64,000 nt of DNA, from NCBI RefSeq assembly GCF_000485905.1, contig NC_022664.1, forward strand, positions 806,001 through 870,000. The letters run 5' to 3'. A program made the translations under genes and the position numbers. The DNA is from Spiribacter curvatus (GTDB lineage Bacteria; Pseudomonadota; Gammaproteobacteria; Nitrococcales; Nitrococcaceae). Positions 48,095 through 60,833 of the stretch are shown here, in pieces. The first letter of the stretch is position 1; every line of letters starts with the position of its first letter. The notes beneath the pieces are model-generated. The model had not been told where the DNA came from, searched no databases, and saw only the letters and a list, made by a program, of their open reading frames with translations.

Positions 48095-49446
48095 ATGGGT
48101 GGACGACGCAGCGGGCGATTGCCGCAGGCGCCGATCGAACTGGATATCGATCGCATCAGTCACGAGGGCCGGGGGATCGGTCATAACGACGGGCGGACGG
48201 TGTTCGTCCAGGGGGCGCTGCCGGGCGAGCGTGTCAGCGTGGATATCCGCCGCCAGCGCCGCCGGCAGCAGGAAGGTCAGGCGCTGTCGGTGGTGGCGGA
48301 ACCTGCTGCCGACCGGGTCACGCCGCCCTGCGAATTCTTCGGGGTCTGCGGCGGCTGCAGTCTCCAGCACATGGATCCGGCGGCTCAGGTCCGGCACAAG
48401 GCAACGACGCTCGCGGAGCTGCTCCGCCATGGCGGTGATGTCGTACCGGATCGCTGGCTGGCACCGCTGACCGGTCCCACCGCCGGGTACCGGGCCCCCC
48501 CGCGGGGTACCGGCGGCGGGCCCGGCTTGGCGTCAAGTACGTCCCGCGCAAGGATGACCGGGTGCTGGTCGGCTTTCGCGAGCGCTTCAGTCCGTTCGTC
48601 GCCGATATCGAGTCCTGCCACGTTCTCGACGCGCGGGTCGGGGATCTGCTCGTCGCGCTGGCGGATCTGGTGCGCGGGCTGACCATTCCCGATCGAATCG
48701 CGCAGATCGAGGTTGCGGCCGGCGATGACAGCGTGGGGCTCGTGTTCCGCAATCTTCGCGAGCTGGCCCCCGTCGACCGGGAGGCACTGATCGCCTTCGG
48801 TCATGCCCATGATCTGCTGATCTTCGAGCAGCCCGGCAATGAGTCGACGGTCGCCCCGGTTGGCCACAGTACCGAGCGCCTCCACTATCGATTGGACGAT
48901 TTCGGTCTGTCGTTCGCCTTCGCGCCCACTGACTTCACCCAGATCAATGCGGCGATCAATCGCCAGATGGTCCCTCAGGCCATCGAACAGCTTGCCCTCG
49001 ATTCCGAAAGCCGGGTGCTGGATCTGTTCTGCGGGCTGGGGAATTTCACGCTGCCCATCGCCCGGCATGCCGCGTCGGTGATCGGTGTCGAGGGAGCCGA
49101 GGCGCTGGTGAGCCGGGGACGCGAGAACGCCGCGCTCAATGGCATCGACAATGCCCGCTTCGAGGCGGCCGATCTCACCCGTCTGGGGCCCGATGCCGAC
49201 TGGCTGGGCGGTGGGATCGATCGAGTGCTGCTGGATCCGCCGCGCTCCGGCGCGCTGGAAGTACTGCCCGCCATTGCCGACCTCGGGCCATCGCGCATCG
49301 TCTATGTCTCCTGCGGGCCCTCGACCCTCGCCCGCGATGCCGGCGAGCTTGTGCATCGCTATGGCTACCGGCTGGAGGCGGCCGGGTTGATGGATATGTT
49401 TCCGCATACCGGCCACGCCGAGGCGATGGCGGTGTTCAGCCGCTGA
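48095..49446 (+). pseudogene. rlmD: 23S rRNA (uracil-1939-C5) methyltransferase RlmD, frame disrupted
   Basis: The first part (48095 onward) has the TRAM-like start IELDIDRISHEGRGIGHNDGRTVFVQGALPGE and the 4Fe-4S cysteines CEFFGVCGGC. The second part continues in another frame from about 48510: VLVGFRERFSPFVADIESC, TQINAAINRQM, the SAM motif VLDLFCGLGNFTLPIA, and the catalytic Cys in YVSCGPSTLARD. The break is exactly at a 20-bp duplication at 48485-48513 in which GGGTACCGG occurs twice. Deleting one unit (48494-48513) reads TAGYRRRARLGVKY and restores one frame of about 443 residues. No other defect is seen, so it is a recent mutation or an assembly error. GTG 48562 could start the C-terminal part only. 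Confidence 0.85.
48485..48513 (+). repeat. 9-bp direct repeat with 11-bp insert inside rlmD
   Basis: GGGTACCGG at 48485-48493 and again at 48505-48513, separated by GCCCCCCCGCG (48494-48504). The added 20 bp shift the rlmD frame by two bases. It contains a run of seven C and is almost wholly G/C. Confidence 0.9.
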
Positions 49447-59012: not shown

Positions 59013-60833
59013 ATGAGCGAGACCAACGTTTTCGACCCCGATCCCGTCCTCAAGACCCTGCCCACCGGGCCGGGCGTCTATCGCATGTTCGATGCCGATG
59101 GCACCGTGATCTATGTCGGCAAGGCCCGCAATCTCAAGCGGCGCGTCAGCAGTTATTTCCGCAAGGGCGCCCACAACGCCAAGACCCAGGCGCTGGTGGG
59201 ACAGGTCGCCGATCTCCAGGTCACCGTGACCCACACCGAGGCCGAGGCGCTGATCCTCGAGAATAACCTCATCAAAGAGCACCGGCCGCGTTATAACGTC
59301 CTGCTGCGCGACGATAAAAGTTATCCATTCATCTATCTCTCAACCCAGCAGGACTTCCCGCGACTGGGGTTCCACCGCGGTCAGCGCCGGGGCGAAGGGC
59401 GGCATTTTGGCCCCTTCCCGTCCTCTGGCGCGGTCCGCGAGACACTCAACCACCTGCAGAAAGTCTTCCCCGTGCGGCAATGCCGCGACAGCTTCTACCG
59501 CCATCGCACACGGCCCTGTCTGCAGTATCAGATTGGCCGCTGCACCGCGCCCTGCGTCGGTTACATCAGCGAAAATGAATATGCCAAAGACGTCCGGCAT
59601 GTCGAGATGTTCCTCTCCGGTCAGAGCAGTGAGGTCGTCGATGAGCTGGTCCGCCGGATGGAGGCGGCCGCTGAGGCGCAGGACTTCGAGCTTGCCGCCC
59701 GGTTGCGGGATCGCATCACCAGCCTGCGACGCATACAGGAGCGCCAGTATGTCTCCGGTGCCAAGGGCGATGTCGATGTGATTGCCTGTCGGTTGCGCGA
59801 GAATATCGCCTGTGTGCAGGTATTCGTGATCCGGGATGGCCAGAATCTCGGCAATCAGACCTGGTTCCCGCGTACGCCGCCGGAGACAACGCCGGAGGAG
59901 GTCCTCTATGCGTTCATCGCCCGTCACTATCTGGGCGAGTCCCCGCCGGGCGAGCTGCTGATCAGCCATGAGCTCACCGATGGCGAGGTGCTTGAGGAGG
60001 CGATGAGCAAGGACGCCGGTCACCGGGTGGGGATCGCCTCGCGGCTTCGCGGCGAACGCCGGCGCTGGATGGAGATGGCGCAGCGTAATGCCGATCACGC
60101 CCTGAGTGCACGCATGAGCGGTGAGGCACTCATGGAGCGGCGCTTCGAGGATATCCAACAGGCGCTCTCGCTCGAGGAAATCCCCGAGCGCATCGAGTGT
60201 TTCGATATCAGTCACACTCGAGGCGAGGCGACGGTAGCCTCCTGTGTAGTGATGGGGCGCGAGGGCCCGATCAAGGATGACTATCGCCGCTTCAACATTG
60301 AGGATGTCACCGCTGGAGACGACTACGCGGCGATGCATCAGGCGCTGGAGCGGCGCTTCAAGCGGCTCAGCGACGGTGAGGGAACGCCGCCGGATGTGCT
60401 GCTCATTGATGGTGGCCAGGGCCAGCTGCGGCAGGCCGAGACGGTTCTCGAGGATCTCCAGATTGAGGGGGTCCTACCGGTCGGTATCTCCAAGGGCCCA
60501 CGGCGCAAGCCCGGCGAGGAAGTGCTGCTGGTCTCGGGGCGAGCGGATGAGATTCGCCTTGCGCCGGAATCGCCGGGGCTGCATCTTCTTCAGCAGGTAC
60601 GGGATGAGGCGCATCGGTTCGCGATCACCGGCCATCGCAACCGCCGGGGTAAGGCGCGCCAGCAGTCCAGCCTTGAGGAGATCCCCGGGCTCGGCGCCAA
60701 GCGTCGGCAAGCGCTGATGAAGCAGTTTGGTGGGCTCAAGGGCATCAAGCGTGCGGGCGTCGAGGATCTCTCGAGCGTCCAGGGGATCAGCACAGCGCTG
60801 GCTGAGCGGATCCACGGGCATCTCAATGGCTAG
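59013..60833 (+). CDS. uvrC: Excinuclease ABC subunit C
   Basis: 606 residues, full length. GIY-YIG domain GPGVYRMFDADGTVIYVGKARNLKRRVSSYF (about 15-45) makes the 3' incision. UVR motif (VRRMEAAAEAQDFELAARLRDRI, about 212-234), RNase H-like 5' nuclease (ERIECFDISHTRGEATVASCVVM with Asp, VLLIDGGQGQLRQAETVL), and C-terminal HhH pair SLEEIPGLGAKRRQALMKQFGGLKGIKRAGVEDL. Nucleotide excision repair. Followed by pgsA after 25 bp, the classical uvrC-pgsA order. Confidence 0.97.
   Translation: MSETNVFDPDPVLKTLPTGPGVYRMFDADGTVIYVGKARNLKRRVSSYFRKGAHNAKTQALVGQVADLQVTVTHTEAEALILENNLIKEHRPRYNVLLRDDKSYPFIYLSTQQDFPRLGFHRGQRRGEGRHFGPFPSSGAVRETLNHLQKVFPVRQCRDSFYRHRTRPCLQYQIGRCTAPCVGYISENEYAKDVRHVEMFLSGQSSEVVDELVRRMEAAAEAQDFELAARLRDRITSLRRIQERQYVSGAKGDVDVIACRLRENIACVQVFVIRDGQNLGNQTWFPRTPPETTPEEVLYAFIARHYLGESPPGELLISHELTDGEVLEEAMSKDAGHRVGIASRLRGERRRWMEMAQRNADHALSARMSGEALMERRFEDIQQALSLEEIPERIECFDISHTRGEATVASCVVMGREGPIKDDYRRFNIEDVTAGDDYAAMHQALERRFKRLSDGEGTPPDVLLIDGGQGQLRQAETVLEDLQIEGVLPVGISKGPRRKPGEEVLLVSGRADEIRLAPESPGLHLLQQVRDEAHRFAITGHRNRRGKARQQSSLEEIPGLGAKRRQALMKQFGGLKGIKRAGVEDLSSVQGISTALAERIHGHLNG

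Follow-up and report, generated by a model that had tools for sequence, protein, structure and literature searches.

Organization of the rlmD locus

The window, that is, the whole stretch of 64,000 nucleotides analysed here, corresponds to G000:C1:806001-870000 of a genome assembled as one contig of 1,926,631 bp. On its plus strand, rlmD, the gene for the 23S rRNA m5U1939 methyltransferase RlmD (RumA), extends over 1352 bp at 48095-49446 and, as assembled, is split over two frames. The frame-0 ORF at 48095-48682 carries the N-terminal portion of RlmD, and the family sequence resumes at 48517 in the -1 frame and continues to 49446. Matches to the NF009639 and TRAM profiles and alignment with E. 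coli RumA (1uwv) placed the TRAM domain, together with three of the four cysteines expected for the Fe-S cluster, in the 5' part (48095-48493, plus strand); by NF009639 and 1uwv, the fourth cysteine and the methyltransferase domain with its catalytic Cys/Glu motifs were located in the 3' part (48514-49446, plus strand, -1 frame). The NF009639 profile was matched at positions 14-134 by the 5' half (E 1.3e-36, 126 bits) and at positions 137-445 by the 3' half (E 3.3e-117, 392 bits), and the two halves aligned with 17-120 and 130-431 of 1uwv, respectively. Over the two frames, the RlmD order of TRAM domain, Fe-S cysteine cluster, central domain and methyltransferase domain is intact. Compared with RlmD/RumA as represented by 1uwv and NF009639, the same domains and motifs are present, but they are encoded here in two frames, the assembled frame being interrupted between Fe-S cysteines three and four.

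Profile search of the genome as assembled gave no single continuous frame above the curated cut-off of NF009639 (458 bits), and no second RlmD was found elsewhere by genome-wide search. Within rlmD itself, no second lesion was found besides a surplus of 20 bp. The claim of the earlier note that rlmD is broken, with 20 bp in excess and no other lesion, was thus borne out by the profile matches in two frames and by the 1332-bp genes of relatives. The cysteines of RumA are expected to hold an Fe-S cluster. Since the split separates the third of these cysteines from the fourth, a normal enzyme could not be formed by either half on its own.

Comparison with relatives

In the same-genus genomes G001, G012, G013, G008 and G010, rlmD is 1332 bp long, against 1352 bp here, in alignments over the full query. 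The surplus is lacking in 27 of 27 related loci, where the segment GYRR(R/K)ARL is uninterrupted; the genome under study (G000) is the sole one of its own species in the comparison. The earlier note had taken relatives without the 20 bp as a sign of assembly error. Such absence proved to be genus-wide, but by itself it does not tell whether the surplus is an artefact or a mutation confined to the strain. Of 80 more distant named relatives covered by a contig scan, at least 68 have the Fe-S cysteines and the GYRR motif together in a single frame, the remaining 12 having been missed by the pattern used. A scan of viral contigs gave no match to the flanking DNA.

Structure of the 20-bp surplus

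The surplus is the second of two adjacent units on the plus strand. Copy A, GTCCCACCGCCGGGTACCGG at 48474-48493, is collinear with the relatives, and copy B, GCCCCCCCGCGGGGTACCGG at 48494-48513, is the surplus itself. The two are identical at 17 of 20 positions, ungapped and with zero spacer, the mismatches lying at positions 2, 6 and 11 of copy B, and together they form the highest-scoring tandem repeat of the window (TRF score 62). Both end in the 9-mer GGGTACCGG (48485-48493 and 48505-48513), the two occurrences being separated by GCCCCCCCGCG; this 9-mer was observed three times in the window, against 0.25 expected. Outside the 9-mer, 8 of 11 positions match, which is weak when taken alone (shuffle p about 0.07); support for a tandem near-copy comes instead from the 9-mer, the context and the exact abutting of the two units, taken jointly. 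Throughout the genome, three sites lie within three mismatches of the unit, namely copies A and B and a further site that is unrelated. The earlier note had described an 11-bp insert between 9-bp repeats; the repeats were confirmed, but the structure is rather a 20-bp tandem near-duplication without spacer. A 21-bp in-frame duplication minus one C was also considered, and was dropped after the ungapped 20-bp match emerged. Origin of copy B by an inverted-repeat template switch fits in part, the site being near-palindromic by eye, but a direct tandem fits better.

The region around the lesion (48471-48545) is GC-rich and folds back, as judged from DNA folding and GC content. Without the surplus, 55 nt of the site gave -17.8 kcal/mol with DNA parameters, and 28 of 5814 window positions were as stable; the site falls in the top 0.5% of the window for hairpin stability and in the top 1% for GC. 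Copy B contains the C7 run at 48495-48501, and nowhere else in the 64-kb window does a run of C or G reach seven bases. Another imperfect tandem, at 60103-60140 (period 19, TRF score 55), lies in a uvrC-like ORF (59013-60833), and it is ordinary coding sequence because the frame is left intact.

Selection on the rest of rlmD

Lineage-specific changes in rlmD were polarised with G012 and G013 as outgroups and G001 as sister. Changes at codon positions 1/2/3 numbered 7/11/40 on the G000 lineage and 12/10/46 on that of the sister, with 9 and 13 amino-acid changes, respectively, and the pairwise dN/dS between G000 and G001 was 0.089. Outside the surplus, rlmD thus shows no relaxed selection. An old duplication would entail drift in a dead gene, and as the remaining 1,329 bp are without excess change, drift after the duplication is excluded. 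The three mismatches between the copies must therefore date from the duplication event itself, unless they are errors of sequencing.

Sequence context of the mismatches

Relative to copy A, and in minus-strand orientation, copy B carries three substitutions: a G>C preceded by CCC, a T>G preceded by CGG and an A>G preceded by GGG. In all three cases the new base repeats the preceding base (random p about 0.007), and two of the three are X>G after CGG or GGG (random p 0.01-0.03), these tests being suggestive only, as they concern three positions and were computed post hoc. Lagging, or dephased, Illumina clusters repeat the previous base in this manner. GGG and CGG are the top two substitution-error motifs of HiSeq, with G as the preferred miscall (PMC4787001), and dephasing is promoted by GGC/GGT contexts, inverted repeats and GC-rich sequence (PMC3622629). 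All three mismatches are confined to the outer 11 nt of copy B. In a right-hand contig, this part would be the left end and would be built from minus-strand reads at their 3' tips. These observations suggest that the differences between copies A and B resemble sequencing errors.

Origin of the surplus

Spiribacter sp. UAH-SP71 (CP005990) is presumably S. curvatus, and we infer that the genome analysed here is that of strain UAH-SP71. In those sections of the project paper that are drawn on here (PMC3832224), the reads of UAH-SP71 are described as HiSeq 2000, 100-bp paired only, PacBio having been used on another strain; assembly was by MIRA and Geneious, with closure by oligonucleotides from contig ends, and the text of these sections gives no list of contig joins.

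Taken altogether, the surplus is most probably an artefact of assembly, in which a stretch was falsely duplicated in tandem where two contigs were joined, and rlmD is probably intact in the living cell. This reading is favoured because the surplus is an adjacent near-copy and is absent from relatives, the gene is not relaxed, the mismatch contexts are error-like, the site forms a hairpin, and the data were Illumina-only with closure from contig ends. The earlier note had held a polymerase slip or an assembly error to be at least as likely as a transposon footprint. It was correct as to the kind of event, and of the two the assembly error is now clearly favoured.

In such an event, the left contig would end in the correct sequence, GTCCCACCGCCGGGTACCGG, and the right contig would open with the same 20 bp, taken from minus-strand Illumina reads near their 3' ends, where errors are frequent. 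Read-through of the GC-rich hairpin may have left three miscalls in the 20 bp of the right contig, and with an overlap of 17/20 unrecognised, both versions would have been written in series, shifting the frame. The contig join would then lie at exactly this spot, and the reads would be without the surplus, running from GGTCCCACCGCCGGGTACCGG directly into CGGCGGGCCC.

Two marks of a false duplication are present here, in that the surplus is an ungapped 17/20 near-copy of its neighbour, and two of the three differences are X>G changes in the CGG/GGG error contexts (n=3, post hoc). In the false duplications by mis-assembly treated in the parts of PMC2864568 and PMC9516828 used here, two versions of one stretch, divergent through errors or between haplotypes, likewise stand adjacent in the consensus. 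The cases in those parts are large haplotype blocks of diploids, whereas here 20 bp of a haploid bacterium are involved, probably derived from error-rich read tips at the end of a contig. The signature of the artefact would be an adjacent near-copy with mismatches in its outer half, following GG on one strand, within an unrelaxed gene. Left uncorrected, the reference leads to a misreading of the species as one without RlmD.

The main rival, to which we give a small yet real chance, is a recent, strain-specific mutation, in which slippage or template switch in the GC-rich quasi-palindrome made an error-prone 20-bp duplication in one step and inactivated rlmD. The site is indeed strongly prone to fold back, the unrelaxed remainder of the gene is compatible with a very recent event, for instance in laboratory culture, and E. 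coli tolerates the loss of RlmD, which is dispensable there. A duplication by simple slippage is, however, identical at the time of its origin. Three substitutions in 20 bp therefore demand an error-prone single step, later drift being excluded by the 1,329 bp without excess change, and the mismatch contexts fit HiSeq errors. If such a mutation were real, it would be an example of 23S m5U1939 being lost naturally in a halophilic bacterium.

Programmed frameshifting is very unlikely. By a -1 shift at the C7 run (48495-48501), full-length RlmD would be restored, with seven residues present twice (GPTAGYR-APPAGYR-RRARL). Slipping by -1 at C CCC CCG would indeed lead into the required frame, a stable hairpin lies downstream, and the run is unique in the window as noted above; but both the run and the duplication are absent from every relative compared, the slippery site is missing in 27 of the 27 loci read, a recoding element shaped by evolution cannot be confined to a single genome, and the insertion would hit the conserved segment GYRRRARL. 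The footprint of an excised transposon with a 9-bp target duplication, suggested by the earlier note from the 9-base direct repeats on either side of 11 bp, is the least credible of all and is not supported, as these 11 bp resemble not the ends of an element but the adjacent host sequence ahead of the first repeat, of which they are a degraded copy matching in register at 8 of 11 positions, so that the whole forms a 20-bp tandem; the one further site in the genome with at most three mismatches to the unit is unrelated.

Quality of the rest of the assembly

A sample of 464 kb, about a quarter of the genome, was compared with 400 kb of G001, and included 191 conserved ORFs. Seven apparent frame breaks relative to G001 were detected, and upon inspection rlmD was the sole conserved gene still broken. 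The apparent frameshifts at 670, 688, 691, 699, 777 and 927 kb were judged to be gene starts, non-coding upstream extensions or antisense ORFs, not broken genes, the 777-kb case solely by the antisense look of the query ORF. The rlmD lesion therefore stands alone in a sample that is clean elsewhere. This cleanness of the sampled quarter is a point against the artefact, since such artefacts would then be infrequent in the assembly.

At the start of aroA (G000:C1:699381), 29 bp more than in G001 are present and the protein start differs, the gene being intact. The tandem scan of the 464-kb sample, covering periods of 12-89 bp, gave a second 20-bp imperfect tandem at G000:C1:554057, which is weaker (16/20) and does not lie at an apparent frame break.
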